From: Methanocaldococcus bathoardescens
GTDB taxonomy: Archaea; AGJL01; Methanococci; Methanococcales; Methanocaldococcaceae
DNA: 64,000 nucleotides
NCBI RefSeq assembly: GCF_000739065.1
Contig: NZ_CP009149.1
Coordinates: 558,001 to 622,000, forward strand
Direction: 5' to 3'
A program made the translations under genes and the position numbers. Every line of letters starts with the position of its first letter. Within the stretch, counting starts at the first letter, position 1. Below the pieces are notes generated by a model that saw only the letters and a list, made by a program, of their open reading frames with translations, searched no databases and was not told the DNA's origin. This document shows positions 7,686-44,352 of the stretch, one piece after another.

Positions 7686-7777
7686 TTTTAATTTTTTATT
7701 TTTATGAAATCTATCATGATTTTTAATGACAAATTATAAATAGTAATAGTTTAGTAATAAAATCTATAGAAAATTAA

Positions 7778-7790
7778 CACTAAAGTAGTG
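7778..7790. promoter_or_regulatory. Inverted repeat in the chelatase leader
   Basis: CACTAAAGTAGTG has perfect 5-base arms around AAG. It lies 30 bases before the chelatase ATG and about 40 bases after a TATA-like ATTATAAA (7733-7740). It could be an operator or short RNA hairpin near the transcript start; chance is possible for arms this short. Confidence 0.25.
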
Positions 7791-7820
7791 ATTATAAACT
7801 CTCAATATTATGGTGGTATT

Positions 7821-10800
7821 ATGAAAATCACATTTTATATGTGGGCATCATACTGCTCAATATTAAAAAATGCATTGGATGAACTAAAACAGGAAGGAAA
7901 GGATATTGAATATAAAATATATTCTAACAGAAATCCAATCGACGATAGCTTTTTAGAGGATGTTAAAAACTCTGATTTAGTTTTTATTTATAGAACAGCA
8001 TCAAATGACATTGATTTAGAAAAAATAAAAAAATTTAATGAAAATGTTGTAGTTGTTGCCCAAGACCCAAGTTTTTGGAATTCTGAAAAATCTGCTAAAT
8101 GTTATCTCTTTACAACATATGGAGGTTTAGATAACTTCAAAAATATGGTTCTATATTTGATGGGTGAAGATAAAGATGTTGTAAAGCATCCCTTCCAAGG
8201 TATTTACTATAATGGAAAGATTTATGATGAATTAGAAGAATTTTTGAAAAATGTAGAGTTTAATAAAAAATACACAGTTGGAGTTTTATTTTCAAGGCAT
8301 TATTTAGTTAATGATGATATGGATGTGATTGAGAAGCTATTAAATAGATTAGAAAAAGAATTCAACATAATTCCTGTATTTTCCTATGGAGCTAAATGTG
8401 AGGAGTTAAATGCCTTAGGTGGGGGAGAAAGTGTTTTAAAATACTTCTTTAAGGATGATAAGCCAATAATAGATGCTCTAATCAACCTATTATCCTTTCC
8501 ATTAGGAACTGTAAAAGATGGGGGAGATTTAAATAAAATTTCTGGGGTAGAGATACTTAAAAAATTAGATGTCCCTGTATTCCATCCAATAATGAGTTAT
8601 TATAAAAGCTACAATGATTGGAAAGAAGATAAGCAGGGTTTATCAGCAGATATTGGTTGGACTATTGCTCTGCCAGAGTTTGAAGGAGTTATAGAGCCAA
8701 TTATCATTGGAACTACAGAAAATGAAGATGGATTGGAGAAGAAGTTTGGAATTGAAGAAAGAATAGATAAAGTTGTTAGAAGAATAAAGAGATGGATTGA
8801 GCTAAAATACAAACCAAAAAAAGATAGAAAAGTTATATTTGTTTTACATAACAATGCATGTGCTTCTGTTGAGGCAACTGTAGGTAGTGCCGCTCATTTA
8901 GACAGTTTTCAGAGTGTTGTAAATATTATGAGAAAGATGAAGGAAGAGGGCTATTATGTAGAAAATATCCCAAAAGATGGGGAAGAATTGGCTCAATTAA
9001 TTCTGCAAAAGAAGGCAATTTCAGAGTTTAGATGGACTACTGTAAATGAGATTATTGCTAAGGGCGGATGTTTATATTTAATGGATGAGGATGAATATTA
9101 CGAATATTTCAACAAACTGCCAGAAAATGTAAAAAATAAGGTTTTAGAGACATGGGGAGATTTAAATGGAAAAGACATTCCAGCTGGGATGATTTATAAG
9201 GTAAATGGAAAAAACAAGATAGTCATAACTGGTTTAAAGTTTGGAAACGTCTATGTTTGTGTTCAACCAAAAAGAGGATGTGCAGGAGCAAGATGTGATG
9301 GAAGAGTTTGTAAGATATTACACGACCCTTACTGCCCACCGACTCATCAGTATATCGCCAGCTATAAGTATTTCAACGATATTGGTGATGTGATAATCCA
9401 CGTTGGAACGCATGGAACGTTGGAGTTTCTGCCAGGAAAGAATGTTGGTTTATCTAATGAATGCTATCCAGATATTTGCATTGGAGATATTCCTCACCTC
9501 TACATCTACAACTCAGATAATCCACCAGAGGGGACTATAGCAAAGAGAAGGAGTTATGCAACCATAATAGACCACATGCAAACAGTTATGGTAGATGCAT
9601 TTTATGAAGAGTTAGAAACTTTAAATAGCTATATAGAGGAATATTTAAAGGAGATGGATGCTTCAAGAAGGCATCAGTTAGAGCATTTGATAATTGAGGA
9701 AGTTAAAAAAACCAATTTATTAAAAATAAAAGAAAAAATTGAGAAAATTGAGAATGAAGGAAATATTCATGAGAAATTTAAAGAGATATTTGATGAAATA
9801 AGAGATATCTTAGAGATGATAAAGAACTCAAAATGTAACGATGGAATGCATATCTTTGGAGAACTTCCAAATGGAGAGAAGAGGATTGAGTTTATAAAGA
9901 GCATTTTGGAATTTGAATATAAAGATAAAGATTTAAAGAAAAAAATTTCTGATGTATTAAATGGAAAAAATATAGAAGATAAAAAATTGGAAGAGAAAAT
10001 CAAGGATATTAATGAGAGGATTGAAAAATCAGATGAAATTGGCTCTTTATTGAGAGGGATTGATGCCAAATATATCGAACCCGGCCCTTCTGGTCTAATA
10101 ACAAGAGGAAACTACGATATTTTACCAACTGGAAGGAACTTTTATTCATTAGACCCATATAGAGTTCCTACAAAATCTGCTTACAGGGTTGGAGTTTTAT
10201 TGGCTGAAAAATTAATTAAGAGATATTTAGAGGAAGAGGGGAGATATCCAGAAAATATTGCTCTATATTGGATGGCATCTGACATAATGTGGGCTGATGG
10301 AGAAGGAATGGGGATGATATTGTATTTATTGGGAGTTAAGCCAGTTTATAGAGGAGGAAAAGTTATTGGTTTGGAAATAATTCCATTAGAGGAATTAGGA
10401 AGGCCAAGGATTGATGTTACTATAAGAGTTAGTGGAATAACAAGGGATATATTCCCAAACTGTATAGAGCTTGTTGATGAAGCAATAATGAAAGTTGCTA
10501 ACTTAGATGAGCCATTAGACATGAACTTTGTAAAAAAACATGTTGTTGAGAATTTAGAGAGAGGCTTATCATTTAGAGAATCAACATTTAGAATCTTCTG
10601 CTCTGCTCCCGGCACTTACGGAAATGGAGTTAAATATGCGGTTTATGCAAGTGCATGGGAAAATGATGAGGATTTAAAAGATGCGTTTATCCATTGGAAT
10701 TCCTATGCTTATGGAAAGGGAGTTTATGGAAAAAAGGCAGTTGAATCATTTGAGAATATATTAAAGACAGTTGATTTGACATTCAATAAAGTTGTTACTG

Positions 10801-11393
10801 ACGAATATGATTTATTTGGCTGTTGTTGTTACTTTGGGACTCATGGAGGCTTAACAAATGCTGCAAGAGTTTTAAAGGGTGGGGAGGTTAAAGCATACTA
10901 TGGAGATACAAGAAATCCAAACAATGTTGAAGTAAGAACTTTAAAAGAGGAGATTGAGAGAGTTACTTTAACAAAACTTCTAAATCCAAAGTGGATTGAA
11001 GGGATGAAGAAACATGGATACAAAGGGGCTGGAGATATAGCTAAGAGGATTGGGAGGGTTTATGGTTGGAGTGCTACAACAAAAGAGGTTGATAACTGGA
11101 TATTTGATGAAATCTTTAATACATTTGTAAAAAATGAAAATAACAGAAGGTTCTTTAAAGAACACAACATATACGCGTTAGAAGAGATTGCAAGAAGGTT
11201 GTTAGAAGCTTACCAAAGGGAATTATGGAAAACAACTGAAGAAAACATTGATGAACTTAAAATGATTTATTTAGAAATTGAAGGAGATATTGAAGAAAGC
11301 TACAGTAATATATCAGAAATTGGTGAATTCCAAGGGGGAAGTGTTGATATAGACATGGTTTGGAAGGAAAAACTTATTAGTAATGGTAAATAA
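7821..11393 (+). CDS. cobN: CobN/BchH-type chelatase large subunit
   Basis: A 1190-residue protein of the cobaltochelatase/magnesium chelatase large-subunit family. The ATG with GGTGGT upstream was preferred to a GTG 33 bases earlier. Characteristic segments include FVLHNNACASVEATVGSAA, the core QPKRGCAGARCDG, DPYCPPTHQYIASY, IHVGTHGTLEFLPGK and DNPPEGTIAKRRSYAT, then the C-terminal SAPGTYGNGVKYAV and FGTHGGLTNAARVLKGG. A charged, Lys/Glu-rich insert spans roughly residues 610-750. Such enzymes insert a divalent metal into a tetrapyrrole with ATPase partners, which are absent from this window. Cobalt for cobamide is the best guess given cobS nearby. Confidence 0.88.
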   Translation: MKITFYMWASYCSILKNALDELKQEGKDIEYKIYSNRNPIDDSFLEDVKNSDLVFIYRTASNDIDLEKIKKFNENVVVVAQDPSFWNSEKSAKCYLFTTYGGLDNFKNMVLYLMGEDKDVVKHPFQGIYYNGKIYDELEEFLKNVEFNKKYTVGVLFSRHYLVNDDMDVIEKLLNRLEKEFNIIPVFSYGAKCEELNALGGGESVLKYFFKDDKPIIDALINLLSFPLGTVKDGGDLNKISGVEILKKLDVPVFHPIMSYYKSYNDWKEDKQGLSADIGWTIALPEFEGVIEPIIIGTTENEDGLEKKFGIEERIDKVVRRIKRWIELKYKPKKDRKVIFVLHNNACASVEATVGSAAHLDSFQSVVNIMRKMKEEGYYVENIPKDGEELAQLILQKKAISEFRWTTVNEIIAKGGCLYLMDEDEYYEYFNKLPENVKNKVLETWGDLNGKDIPAGMIYKVNGKNKIVITGLKFGNVYVCVQPKRGCAGARCDGRVCKILHDPYCPPTHQYIASYKYFNDIGDVIIHVGTHGTLEFLPGKNVGLSNECYPDICIGDIPHLYIYNSDNPPEGTIAKRRSYATIIDHMQTVMVDAFYEELETLNSYIEEYLKEMDASRRHQLEHLIIEEVKKTNLLKIKEKIEKIENEGNIHEKFKEIFDEIRDILEMIKNSKCNDGMHIFGELPNGEKRIEFIKSILEFEYKDKDLKKKISDVLNGKNIEDKKLEEKIKDINERIEKSDEIGSLLRGIDAKYIEPGPSGLITRGNYDILPTGRNFYSLDPYRVPTKSAYRVGVLLAEKLIKRYLEEEGRYPENIALYWMASDIMWADGEGMGMILYLLGVKPVYRGGKVIGLEIIPLEELGRPRIDVTIRVSGITRDIFPNCIELVDEAIMKVANLDEPLDMNFVKKHVVENLERGLSFRESTFRIFCSAPGTYGNGVKYAVYASAWENDEDLKDAFIHWNSYAYGKGVYGKKAVESFENILKTVDLTFNKVVTDEYDLFGCCCYFGTHGGLTNAARVLKGGEVKAYYGDTRNPNNVEVRTLKEEIERVTLTKLLNPKWIEGMKKHGYKGAGDIAKRIGRVYGWSATTKEVDNWIFDEIFNTFVKNENNRRFFKEHNIYALEEIARRLLEAYQRELWKTTEENIDELKMIYLEIEGDIEESYSNISEIGEFQGGSVDIDMVWKEKLISNGK

Positions 11394-33300: not shown

Positions 33301-33351
33301 TATTTATATTTTAATTATAATCAATTTGTCATTAATGATAATGATAAATTG
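33301..33351 (+). promoter_or_regulatory. ehbM promoter with operator-like inverted repeat
   Basis: A TATA-like TATTTATATTTTAA starts at 33301. Centred about 24 bases downstream of it, arms CAATTTGTCATTA (33322-33334) and TAATGATAAATTG (33339-33351) are complementary at 12 of 13 positions around ATGA. The position over the expected transcription start fits a repressor operator controlling ehbMO. Confidence 0.55.
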
Positions 33352-33373
33352 TTAATAAAGTATCGGTGGCATC

Positions 33374-33820
33374 ATGATTAAAAAAATGGCAAGGAAGAAG
33401 TGCATTCATGTTATGCTTGTTTATACTGGTGGATGTAACGCATGCGATATCGAAGTTGTTAATGCTGTGTTTTCACCTTTTTATGATGCTGAACAGTATA
33501 ATGTTTTTTTAACATTTAATCCAAGAGAAGCTGATATTTTAGTTGTTACTGGCTGTGTTACCAAGGTCGTTGCTGAATCTTTAAGAAAAATTTATGAAAA
33601 GATTCCAGAGCCAAAAGCAGTTGTTGCTGTAGGGGCTTGTGCATTAATGGGGGGAGTTTATAAAAACATTGGAGGAGATTTAGGAACTTCAGATTTTGTA
33701 GCTGGGCCTGTTGAAAATATAATTCCAGTTGATGTTAAAGTACCTGGCTGTGCCCCAAGACCTGAAGATATTATAGCTGGGATAGTTAAAGCTCTACCAA
33801 AGGTTATTGAAGGAAAATAA
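33374..33820 (+). CDS. ehbM: Energy-converting hydrogenase B small subunit
   Basis: A 148-residue NuoB/hydrogenase-small-subunit-like protein: [48 protein letters not shown] and [15 protein letters not shown]. The conserved Cys residues bind one 4Fe-4S cluster. In Ehb it passes electrons from the NiFe site to ferredoxins, driven by sodium or proton motive force, to support carbon fixation. ehbO follows after 22 bases. The catalytic large subunit is not in this window. GGTGGCATC precedes the ATG. Confidence 0.85.
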
Positions 33821-33842: not shown

Positions 33843-34811
33843 ATGATTGATAAAATTATTTCAATAATTGGAATCCCTGCATTGGCTTTTGCAATCTCAA
33901 CCTATATTCCAGGAATTCAGAGAAAGATAGAAGCAAGAATACAACAAAGAATAGGACCAAGTATATTAGCCCCCGGATTTTGGGCATTTTTTAAGTTTCT
34001 ATTTAAAGAGACAAAAACACCTGATGCTAACTTGCCAAAGTTATATAATTTATTGCCTTTGTTATCTATAGCTGTTTTATGGGCTATATTAGCTATAACA
34101 TCAATAACATCTTTCTATATATTATCTAACGTTATTGGTATTGTTGGTTTGCTAAAATTGGAAGAGATGATGTATGTTATTCTTGGCTCTTTAGCATTTT
34201 CAATTATGGGTTGGAGGATGCCATTTATAGATGAGTGTAAGGGAACCCCATTTATAAAAACTTTAAAACTTTCATTGGAACAGTTAGGGGCTATAAGAAG
34301 CTTTAAAATGATAACCATTGGTTCATTTCCATTTTATTTGGCAATTTTCCTTCCATTTATTCAAAAAAATAGCATATTTTTAAAAGATATTGTTGGAGAG
34401 CCGTTTTTATTCTCATTAGCTGGAATATTTGGAGCTATATGCTATTTCATTGGCTATGTTATAATGATTAAAGAATATCCATTCTCAATAACTCACACAA
34501 AGGCGGATGTTATTGAAGGCCCTACAATGGAATTAATGGCTAAGTATAGGGCTTTATATTTAGCAAGTAAAGAGCTTTTATTAATAACCTTAGGAAGTTT
34601 ATTTGCCACTCTATATTTAGGAATAGCCCCTGACATAAATAATCCAATAACAATCATTGAAAACTTTGCTATAGCTATAGCATTTCCAATATTAGCAACA
34701 TTTGTTAGAGCATTTTCCCCAGTGCTTTTATTTAAACAAATATATCCTGTCTCATTTGTAGCAACACTAATTGGAGCTATTGGATTTATCTTTGCTTTGC
34801 TCGGGTGGTAA
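33843..34811 (+). CDS. ehbO: Energy-converting hydrogenase B membrane subunit (NuoH-like)
   Basis: A 322-residue integral membrane protein of the NuoH/HyfC family, with about eight helices. It has QRKIEARIQQRIGPSILAPG, the family quinone/ion channel loop in complex I, and EYPFSITHTKADVIEGPTMEL with conserved acids. It couples hydrogen oxidation at the EhbM/N module to ion flow. EhbO is preferred to EhaJ because of the ehbM neighbour. The last 45 bases overlap the convergent ligase-like gene. Confidence 0.82.
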   Translation: MIDKIISIIGIPALAFAISTYIPGIQRKIEARIQQRIGPSILAPGFWAFFKFLFKETKTPDANLPKLYNLLPLLSIAVLWAILAITSITSFYILSNVIGIVGLLKLEEMMYVILGSLAFSIMGWRMPFIDECKGTPFIKTLKLSLEQLGAIRSFKMITIGSFPFYLAIFLPFIQKNSIFLKDIVGEPFLFSLAGIFGAICYFIGYVIMIKEYPFSITHTKADVIEGPTMELMAKYRALYLASKELLLITLGSLFATLYLGIAPDINNPITIIENFAIAIAFPILATFVRAFSPVLLFKQIYPVSFVATLIGAIGFIFALLGW

Positions 34812-40919: not shown

Positions 40920-43900
40920 TTATTCAACAGTAACACTCTTAGCTAAACCTCTTGGCTTATCCACATCTCTTCCAAGCTCAACAGCTTTATAATAAGCCAA
41001 TAATTGGAAAGCTGGAGCATAAACAATTGGAGAAATCTCCTCAATCACTTCTGGAACTATGATATTTTCAGCTCCCTCTATTTCAATTGGAGTTATAGCT
41101 ATAACCTTTCCTCCTCTTGCCCTAACTTCTTCAATATTTGACAATATAGAATTAAATACGGATGAATCTCTTGGAGGGACAATAGCTACAGTATCCATGT
41201 TTTTATCAATTAGAGATATAGTTCCATGCTTTAACATCCCCCCACTCATCCCCTCTGCATGTAAATAAGTTATTTCTTTAAATTTCAGAGCCCCTTCTAA
41301 TGCACTTGCAATATTTATCCCTTTAGAGATGAATATATAGTTATTTACTTTTAGATTATTGGCTATTTCTTTAATTATATCTTTTTTATCTAAAACTTGC
41401 TTTATATACTCAGGAATCTTATCAATCTCTTTTTCATATCTGCTCATATCTCTACCCAAGAGCTTTCCATATTCGATAAACAACCTGTATAATATCATCA
41501 ATTGAGAAGTGTAGGTTTTAGTTGCACAGACGGCTATCTCTATTCCTGCTCCCATCATAACTGTTATATCCACCTCTCTTGTAGCTGTACTTCCTAAAAC
41601 ATTAACTATAACCCCTGTTTTAGCTTTATTTTTCTTAGCAAATCTTAAAGCTTTTAATGTATCATAAGTTTCTCCACTTTGTGTAATTCCTATAACCAAT
41701 GTTTTATCATCAACAACCCCTTTATTTAAAAACTCGGATGCATCACAAGCAATAACAAGCTTTCCAAGTTTTGCAAATAAATACTCAGCAACCATTGCTG
41801 CATGTAAAGAGGTTCCCATAGCTACAAAATAAACCCTATCATAATCTTTGATACATTTTGCCAATTCTTTAATTTCTTCAGCAGATATCTTAGCAGAAAC
41901 CTTTAAAATCTCTGGCTGTTCCATAATTTCTTTTAGCATAAAGTGAGGATAACCCATTTTTTCAGCAGAGCTAATATCCCAATCAATTTCCATTATCTTT
42001 CTTTCAACAATATGTCCATTATTTTCTATACTTACTTCATAGCCGTTATCTTTCTTTTTAATTATCACTATATCTCCATCTTCTAAAGGAACTGCTTTAT
42101 TTGTATAATCTAAGAAAGCTGTAATATCACTCCCTAAAAAATAGCAGTTATCTCCAACGCCCAATATTAATGGGCTTTCATTTCTTGCTCCAATTAATAG
42201 ATTTGGGAAGTTTTTGTTTATTATAACTAATGCATAAGTTCCATTTAATTTTTTAACTGCATTTTTAACAGCCTTTATATAGTTTTCTTCATTAATTTCT
42301 TCAAATTTTTTTAACTCCTCTTCAATTAGATGAGGAACAATCTCTGTATCTGTTTCTGATTTAAATTTATGCCCCTTCTTTATCAACTCTTCTTTTAACT
42401 CCTTATAATTAGAGATGATTCCGTTATGAACTACTGCAATCTCTTCTTTACAGTCAGTATGAGGGTGAGCGTTTTCTTTACTTACATTTCCGTGAGTGGC
42501 CCATCTCGAGTTATGATTAATTATTAAGTTTCCAATAAAGTTATGGTAATCTTCAACCTCCAAATCATAAACATACTCAACATCTGATTCAATTTTCTCA
42601 ATCTCAAATTTTGTCCAAACTATATCTGCATCTAAGAATTTCTTGAGGTAGTTTGCTTTATCAGACAGCCCTTTGCTATTTAATTCTTCAATGATTTTTT
42701 CTATTGTGTAATCGGTGCAATAGTTATCTTCATTTTTTATTGTTTTTAATGGAACTCCTACAAATTTTCTAATTTCTTTTTTAGTCAGTGGGACTGAAAT
42801 ATACCTAAAGTTAAGCCCTTTCATTTTATTTAATATATTATTTAATTTTTCCATTTTATCCTTTGCAGTAAAGCCAATGTATTTTTTAAACAACTCAAAG
42901 GACTTTTTATCACTTATGTATAGTTTATGAGCATCATTCCAATTTTCCTCTCTTCTCTTTGTTTTTGAATATGAGGCCAAAATTCCAAATCTTAACAATA
43001 AAAACTGAATCTCTTTTATAAAGCATTCAGAAGTCATTCCTATACCAATCTGCTTAGCATTAATTCCCACATAACCTTCTGCGTCAAATATTCCCCTTAA
43101 ATATGATGCTACTAAGTCATTATTTAATCTAAATACAAATTCTGGAGTTTTCTCATAACCTGTTTTATTAAATAACTCTGGAATGTTTTCTTTAAACCAA
43201 TCAACTAAGTATTTGCTGTTTATTTCCAATATGTAATGATTACCATCTCCTTTCTTAATATTTCCTTCTAAGTTAAAGACATTTTTAAACAGTTGATTGT
43301 ATTTCTCTAAAACTTCTTTTCTTTCATCTTTCAATCTCAATATTCTATTTGAAGGGAAATATCCATCCCCAATAATATAACCAATAATTTGCATTAATTC
43401 TGGAGTAGGAGTTTTTGGAAATTTGACTGGATTTGTATAATGCAAATTATCTTTGTCTATAATCTCTTCAAAGTTGATGCCATAGAGGGAGCATAATTTC
43501 TTTAATCTCTCTTCTTCAATACTTTCCAATTTTCCATTTTCAATTTTTGCAATATATCTCTCTTTTACACCACTCAAATTCTCAACATCTTTTCTTGTTA
43601 ATCCCAATTTTTCTCTAATTTTTCTTAGTTTATTTCTTATTGTATCATCTAACTTATAATGCCTTTCAACATAAACATCTTTAAACTCAACACTATCGTC
43701 AAAGTTATAATTTAATTTTCTCACTATACCAACTAACTCATTTCCATTCAAATCTTTAACAGGTTTTTCAACTATTTTTCCATTCTCTACAACAAACAAT
43801 CTATGTTCTCCAGTGGTAATAAGCTCAGAAAATACTGTCTTTATTTTATACAACTCCTTTGGTGCTTTATGTTTAAACTTTTTAATTTTTTTATTATATA

Positions 43901-44225
43901 GTTTTAAATCCTTAAAATTAACTGATAAAACCTCCTCCTCTCTATCAATTTCAGAAATCTTCTTCATTCTTCCATCTGGGAGTATAACATAAGTATTAGG
44001 ATGCAAACAATGTCCCAATCCAATATTTCCCTCAACATCTAAAAATCCCTCTTTTTCAGCAACCTCTTCAACTTTACCCACATTTTTTTTAATAATTAAT
44101 TTATCATTATTATCAACAACTCCAATCCCACAGCTGTCATATCCTCTATATTCTAACCTTCTCAAGCCATTTAATAATATTTTTGATGCCTTATCATTAC
44201 CTATATAGCCAATAATACCACACAT
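40920..44225 (-). CDS. glmS: Glutamine-fructose-6-phosphate aminotransferase with intein
   Basis: The ATG giving MCGIIGYIGNDKASK was chosen, with GGTGAAAT just upstream, so the catalytic Cys becomes the N-terminal residue after Met removal. Excluding a 500-residue intein, the host protein is about 601 residues, normal for GlmS. The glutaminase half is interrupted within GLGH/SRWATHG and continues with VHNGIISNYKELK and SETDTEIVPHLIE. The isomerase half has two SIS domains (FVAMGTSLHAAMVAEYLF, VIGITQSGETYDTL) and ends with KPRGLAKSVTVE. It makes glucosamine 6-phosphate for UDP-GlcNAc. Splicing is needed to form the active site. Confidence 0.96.
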   Translation of the reverse strand: MCGIIGYIGNDKASKILLNGLRRLEYRGYDSCGIGVVDNNDKLIIKKNVGKVEEVAEKEGFLDVEGNIGLGHCLHPNTYVILPDGRMKKISEIDREEEVLSVNFKDLKLYNKKIKKFKHKAPKELYKIKTVFSELITTGEHRLFVVENGKIVEKPVKDLNGNELVGIVRKLNYNFDDSVEFKDVYVERHYKLDDTIRNKLRKIREKLGLTRKDVENLSGVKERYIAKIENGKLESIEEERLKKLCSLYGINFEEIIDKDNLHYTNPVKFPKTPTPELMQIIGYIIGDGYFPSNRILRLKDERKEVLEKYNQLFKNVFNLEGNIKKGDGNHYILEINSKYLVDWFKENIPELFNKTGYEKTPEFVFRLNNDLVASYLRGIFDAEGYVGINAKQIGIGMTSECFIKEIQFLLLRFGILASYSKTKRREENWNDAHKLYISDKKSFELFKKYIGFTAKDKMEKLNNILNKMKGLNFRYISVPLTKKEIRKFVGVPLKTIKNEDNYCTDYTIEKIIEELNSKGLSDKANYLKKFLDADIVWTKFEIEKIESDVEYVYDLEVEDYHNFIGNLIINHNSRWATHGNVSKENAHPHTDCKEEIAVVHNGIISNYKELKEELIKKGHKFKSETDTEIVPHLIEEELKKFEEINEENYIKAVKNAVKKLNGTYALVIINKNFPNLLIGARNESPLILGVGDNCYFLGSDITAFLDYTNKAVPLEDGDIVIIKKKDNGYEVSIENNGHIVERKIMEIDWDISSAEKMGYPHFMLKEIMEQPEILKVSAKISAEEIKELAKCIKDYDRVYFVAMGTSLHAAMVAEYLFAKLGKLVIACDASEFLNKGVVDDKTLVIGITQSGETYDTLKALRFAKKNKAKTGVIVNVLGSTATREVDITVMMGAGIEIAVCATKTYTSQLMILYRLFIEYGKLLGRDMSRYEKEIDKIPEYIKQVLDKKDIIKEIANNLKVNNYIFISKGINIASALEGALKFKEITYLHAEGMSGGMLKHGTISLIDKNMDTVAIVPPRDSSVFNSILSNIEEVRARGGKVIAITPIEIEGAENIIVPEVIEEISPIVYAPAFQLLAYYKAVELGRDVDKPRGLAKSVTVE
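42510..44009 (-). other. Intein in GlmS with embedded HTH and LAGLIDADG domains
   Basis: The 500-residue intein starts at Cys (CLHPNTYVILPDG) and ends INHN before a Ser +1. Splicing block B is ITTGEHRLF (about residue 64). Residues about 122-178 (43476-43646) form a Cro/C1-type helix-turn-helix: NKLRKIREKLGLTRKDVENL, then VKERYIAKIENGK. The homing endonuclease follows, with LAGLIDADG motifs LMQIIGYIIGDG (about 205) and LVASYLRGIFDAEG (about 299). The C-terminal splicing block is VYDLEVEDYHNFIGN. All splice-junction residues look intact, so the intein is probably active. Confidence 0.93.
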
Positions 44226-44352
44226 ATATTTCACCGATAAACCTAAATATTTCCTAAAGTAATAAATAGTTAAAGCTTACTAAACAATAATATTATCATT
44301 AACTTTAACTTCTCTTTTAAATATTATAATGTTTTGTTTGGAGGTGAGAGTT

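Follow-up and report, generated by a model that had tools for sequence, protein, structure and literature searches.

A conserved palindrome at the ehbM promoter as the predicted operator of a Methanococcales regulon for autotrophic two-carbon assimilation

The palindrome at the ehbM promoter

In the 64,000-nucleotide stretch of Methanocaldococcus bathoardescens DNA analysed here (the window), the promoter of ehbM contains a palindrome, which raises the question of whether a regulatory protein acts there and which other genes share the site. An earlier note, made from the sequence alone, had described 13-bp arms, complementary at 12 of 13 positions and four bases apart, just downstream of a TATA-like element. 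Both parts of this description were borne out: the left arm CAATTTGTCATTA (33322-33334) and the right arm TAATGATAAATTG (33339-33351) are complementary at 12/13 positions and are separated by ATGA (4 bp), and the TATA-like element TTTATATT precedes them. The features of the promoter and the operon are as follows.

33303..33310, plus strand: TATA-like element TTTATATT of the ehbM promoter (from sequence)
33322..33351, no strand: predicted palindromic operator with 13-nt arms and a 4-nt spacer, kept in relatives
33323-33350, no strand: 28-bp motif AATTTGTCATTAATGATAATGATAAATT within the palindromic operator
33365..33369, plus strand: GGTGG ribosome-binding site of ehbM (from sequence)
33374..33820, plus strand: ehbM (148 aa; Pfam PF01058, E 9e-30), encoding the small, NuoB-like subunit of Ehb, an energy-converting hydrogenase
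33843..34811, plus strand: ehbO-like gene for a NuoH-like membrane subunit (weak NuoH matches in NCBIfam)

The inverted repeat can be followed further outward as 20-nt arms (85%; 33315-33334 and 33339-33358). The palindrome lies 11 bp downstream of TTTATATT and ends 13 bp before GGTGG, with the ehbM ATG at 33374. Because the TATA centre lies 30 bp ahead of the operator centre, the usual archaeal TATA-to-start distance would place the ehbM transcription start within the operator. Orthologues of ehbM are present across Methanococcales, and the ehbO-like gene follows 22 bp downstream in the same operon. Elsewhere in the window, a GlmS-like aminotransferase ORF (40920-44234, minus strand) is apparently interrupted by an intein, as judged by eye, with the junctions GHC-LHPNTYVILPDGR ... 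NFIGNLIINHN-SRWATHG.

Taken by itself, the palindrome is uninformative, because such structures occur at chance level in this AT-rich window: 2 palindromes with 13-nt arms, up to 1 mismatch and a spacer of 0-8 nt were found, compared to ≈1.9 expected from first-order Markov copies of the window. The case therefore depends on recurrence. The earlier note held that an operator should be retained before ehbM in close relatives and should be rare at random positions. The site does precede ehbM in all 13 Methanocaldococcus-genus genomes with an assembled ehbM promoter, with variation in the spacer and flanks, and it is also retained in one Methanotorris-like genome (L025). Some Methanococcaceae ehbM genes have no site, apparently because ehbM sits within a longer operon there.

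Recurrence of the motif and its targets

With up to 3 mismatches allowed, the full palindrome occurs at only 2 places in the 1,607,556-bp genome, at ehbM and before an ehb operon. Genomes were scanned by pattern search with AATTTRTCATTA-N4-TAATGAYAAATT (up to 3 mismatches), which was derived from the ehbM promoters and one ehbF-operon match already seen. Across 14 genomes of the genus Methanocaldococcus, 72 sites (3-7 per genome) matched this pattern and 0 matched the reversed control, so that the palindrome is not frequent at random positions. Moreover, since the pattern was set from the ehbM promoters and that one ehbF-operon match, the remaining targets form an independent test of it. A refined motif with up to 2 mismatches found 2 sites in the window compared to 0.18 expected.

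Relaxed settings have a non-zero background, and isolated weak sites found with them are consequently untrustworthy: the relaxed motif with up to 2 mismatches gave 170 sites in the genus compared to 50 for the control, and its longer form with up to 3 mismatches gave 148 compared to 45 in 12 Methanococcaceae. A short pattern with three mismatches was near background (59 compared to 40), and three-mismatch matches were accepted only where they were confirmed in relatives, as for porC. Two near-matches in the M. bathoardescens genome were set aside as probable chance hits, the first within a Rad50-like gene (284585) and the second in a repeat array (769864). The latter array looks like a CRISPR (L100:1863-2150, about 769,700-770,000 of the genome). 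A search of the phage collection gave no match.

The accepted sites precede a coherent set of genes, whose families were confirmed by profile matches (Pfam, NCBIfam). The earlier note had singled out the promoters of the other ehb genes and of the carbon-fixation oxidoreductases for a search, and sites were found in both groups. The ehb targets in M. bathoardescens are the ehbM-O operon, the ehbF operon (a gene pair for EhbF, at 790 bits against an NCBIfam cut-off of 578, and a MrpC/NuoK-like subunit), the large subunit gene ehbN, which is divergent from thiC, and the gene of an MnhG-like Ehb subunit, which adjoins that of thymidylate kinase. The carbon-fixation targets are cdhA (catalytic subunit of CODH), cdhD-cdhE and porC of pyruvate synthase. 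Further targets in this genome are a cobN-like gene and a tiny membrane-protein gene that carries an operator array. The cobN-like gene and its operator also lie in the window.

7708..7735, no strand: second operator AATCTATCATGATTTTTAATGACAAATT, with 0 mismatches to the degenerate motif
7788..11393, plus strand: cobN-like cobaltochelatase gene, 1201 aa (PF02514, E 7.5e-155), downstream of the second operator

The 7708-7735 operator is conserved in the M. jannaschii-like and other genus genomes, and the conserved start of the cobN-like gene is probably at 7821. Relatives add acsB, a pair of ferredoxin and cdhC-like genes, and acs for AMP-forming acetyl-CoA synthetase. The same target classes recur in Methanococcaceae, together with the SatP acetate transporter (NCBIfam AceTr_1, 278 bits), an MnhE-like ehb gene, another porC and, in two Methanococcaceae genomes, the A1Ao ATP synthase operon. 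Thus, one motif precedes transcription units of related function more often than chance would give, and both site and target are conserved across species within the genus and in Methanococcaceae. Outside Methanococcales, a single near-consensus site was found in the outgroup genome G037, just before porC (L130:1501-1528).

These results bear on two alternatives to an operator. Chance in AT-rich DNA would explain the ehbM palindrome taken alone, since about 2 lone palindromes of such size are expected per window, but it does not account for conservation across the order, coherent targets, or 72 sites compared to 0 with the control pattern, and we consider its probability practically nil. The inverted repeat, which partially overlaps the predicted transcript, might instead act as RNA, in the form of a 5'-leader hairpin or attenuator. 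The 31 target sites that define the consensus AATYTRTMATKA-TT/AA-TMATKAYARATT (about 28 bits) are invariant at T7, A9, T10, A12 and the mirror positions, and the variable positions R6, M8 and K11 change independently between arms; covariation of the pairs 4/25, 6/23, 8/21 and 11/18 is at shuffle level. On this sequence evidence, such independent variation is the pattern that a protein dimer reading two half-sites would leave, unlike that of an RNA stem, whose compensatory changes between arms were not found. In addition, the predicted transcription start falls inside the repeat, some copies lie upstream of TATA boxes, and an Rfam search gave no match. Because the arms vary independently, the RNA hairpin is rejected; we regard it as extremely improbable.

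Operator position and candidate regulator

Of 36 promoters, 31 have a TATA-like box on the upstream side of the site, within 45 bp, and 7 have one downstream, and the distance from an upstream TATA centre to the operator centre is mostly 20-43 bp. In most of the metabolic genes, the operator covers the predicted start or follows it closely, directly ahead of the ribosome-binding site. Lying between the TATA box and the start codon, these sites have the geometry of a repressor.

A different arrangement is found at the tiny gene, which encodes a 50-61-aa protein with one apparent membrane segment, as judged by eye, and no match in Pfam or NCBIfam. Two to three tandem operators lie directly upstream of its TATA box, and in genomes of both families the centres of the triple array are 33-36 and 26-27 bp apart.

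L097:1999-2320, genome positions 964868-965189: tiny-gene array of M. bathoardescens, conserved across Methanococcales

The array with its gene was also found at L101, L106, L138, L143, L144, L136, L076 and L092, and the array alone at L110. In the M. jannaschii-like genome (L101), an inverted-repeat insertion, GGACTTTCGCAG...CTGCGAAAGTCC, lies between the tiny gene and its TATA box and operator array. At atpH of the A1Ao ATP synthase operon, an operator likewise lies upstream of the TATA box in the M. aeolicus-like and M. okinawensis-like genomes (L142:2001-2028 and L152:2001-2028). Because the tiny-gene and atpH sites precede the TATA box, the regulator may activate some promoters and may not be purely a repressor.

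A rival reading keeps the operator and regulon as described but takes the regulator to be chiefly an activator or architectural factor, with the sites over the transcription start serving to bend DNA or recruit factors. The three tandem sites upstream of the tiny-gene TATA box throughout the order and the single sites upstream of the atpH TATA box are consistent with such a role, and the archaeal Lrp protein Ptr2 activates from sites in such positions upstream of the TATA box (PMC2995911). However, the TATA box is upstream of the operator in 31/36 promoters, where a bound dimer would block polymerase, and a mainly activating role appears unlikely to us. As to which protein binds, the Lrp-family protein Ptr1 (MJ0151-like) is encoded beside acsB, the CODH/ACS beta-subunit gene, in several genomes. 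By contrast, a true Ptr1 orthologue is present in only 9 of 36 Methanococcales genomes, and the complete genomes G006, G011, G019 and G022 have the regulon without Ptr1. Ptr1 was rejected on this distribution and is very unlikely to be the regulator.

The best candidate for the regulator is instead a 212-aa XRE-family protein, an assignment that we put forward tentatively. Its gene lies ahead of the eha operon in 36/36 Methanococcales genomes, and no orthologue was found in 5 outgroups. This range matches that of the motif, except in G037, which has the one porC site and no XRE orthologue. The protein contains an HTH_3 domain (PF01381, E 1.7e-10) with an almost invariant helix-turn-helix, which is identical in the 11 sequences compared. 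Two M. maripaludis-like genomes have a full site in the promoter of the XRE gene itself. Weaker sites, 27-57 bp ahead of the start codon, were found there in most Methanocaldococcus genomes and in Methanotorris-, aeolicus- and one okinawensis-related genome; scans of this promoter in infernus-, vannielii- and some other genomes found no site. In fold searches with the predicted structure (pLDDT 90), the N-terminal half matched XRE domains. Matches of the C-terminal half were weak (best Z 6.5 over 83 residues at 3.8 A), with no clear solved relative among them, and imply no particular ligand.

Proposed regulon and comparison with known systems

We conclude that the palindrome is very probably the operator of a conserved Methanococcales regulon for autotrophic two-carbon assimilation, with repression over the start site. 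Site recurrence, conservation, target identity and position are what we observed; from these we infer protein binding, the sign of regulation and the effector. A dimeric helix-turn-helix regulator would bind the 28-bp AATYTRTMATKA-N4-TMATKAYARATT, which can be read as two TMATKA units, each quasi-palindromic, spaced by one helical turn, and, when bound over the transcription start, would most likely block transcription. Its predicted targets are the ehb operons, cdhA, cdhD/E, acsB or cdhC, por, AMP-forming acs, the SatP transporter and cobN. With abundant acetyl-CoA or fixed carbon, repression would probably be strong, and scarcity would relieve it; acetyl-CoA as the effector is our guess. The earlier note had suggested a dedicated regulator of the anabolic hydrogenase Ehb at this site. 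The predicted operator is supported, and a scope limited to Ehb is too narrow, since genes for CODH/ACS, por, acs, acetate uptake and cobN have the same operator motif before them.

Published changes in M. maripaludis, where Ehb, CODH/ACS, Por and Acs are reported to vary together under several conditions, fit one regulon that tracks the demand for C2 units. In proteomics, Por, AMP-forming Acs and ATPase rise under nitrogen limitation, and CODH/ACS and Acs fall under phosphate limitation (PMC2723118). In syntrophic coculture, Ehb and CO2 fixation are lowered and Eha is raised (reviewed in PMC3600222). A broader version, which we consider doubtful, is that the XRE protein at the head of eha is a Methanococcales-specific master switch of autotrophic carbon assimilation. 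From start-site operators it would repress Ehb, CODH/ACS, Por, Acs and acetate uptake; from operators upstream of TATA it would activate the tiny conserved membrane protein and, in some species, ATP synthase, so that anabolic Ehb would be balanced against catabolic Eha by acetyl-CoA or energy state.

The ehb genes are scattered, and a shared operator therefore explains how their expression could stay in step. Searches of the open-access literature found neither an operator nor a regulator described for these genes, including the ehb, cdh and por genes of Methanococcales. The 28-bp site, the target list and the candidate protein make coregulation directly testable in a genetically tractable methanogen and offer a handle for engineering CO2 fixation.

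Among known systems, NrpR of Methanococcus is similar in that a repressor acting at a palindromic operator in archaeal promoters adjusts dispersed operons jointly to nutrient state. It differs in sequence (GGAA-N6-TTCC) and in its targets, which are nitrogen genes there and carbon assimilation here. The earlier note's view that the palindrome is unlike the NrpR pattern was correct: GGAA-N6-TTCC is absent from the ehbM promoter, and its sole match in the window, at 9168 in a gene, is at chance level (1.49 expected), so that identity with the NrpR operator was rejected. Ptr2 of M. jannaschii (Lrp family), whose operator is GGACGATTTTCGTCC, has several palindromic sites upstream of a TATA box, as in the tiny-gene triple array. 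Its operator and its targets are both unrelated to the present motif and regulon; known targets are fdxA, rb2 and rbr (PMC2995911). Operators of the XRE/lambda-repressor type (P22 c2, C.Esp1396I) resemble the present site in the spacing of their two half-sites, which is close to one helical turn. The candidate protein, whose binding is putative, shares the HTH_3 domain with regulators of this type and differs from them in being archaeal and in having an order-specific C-terminal domain.
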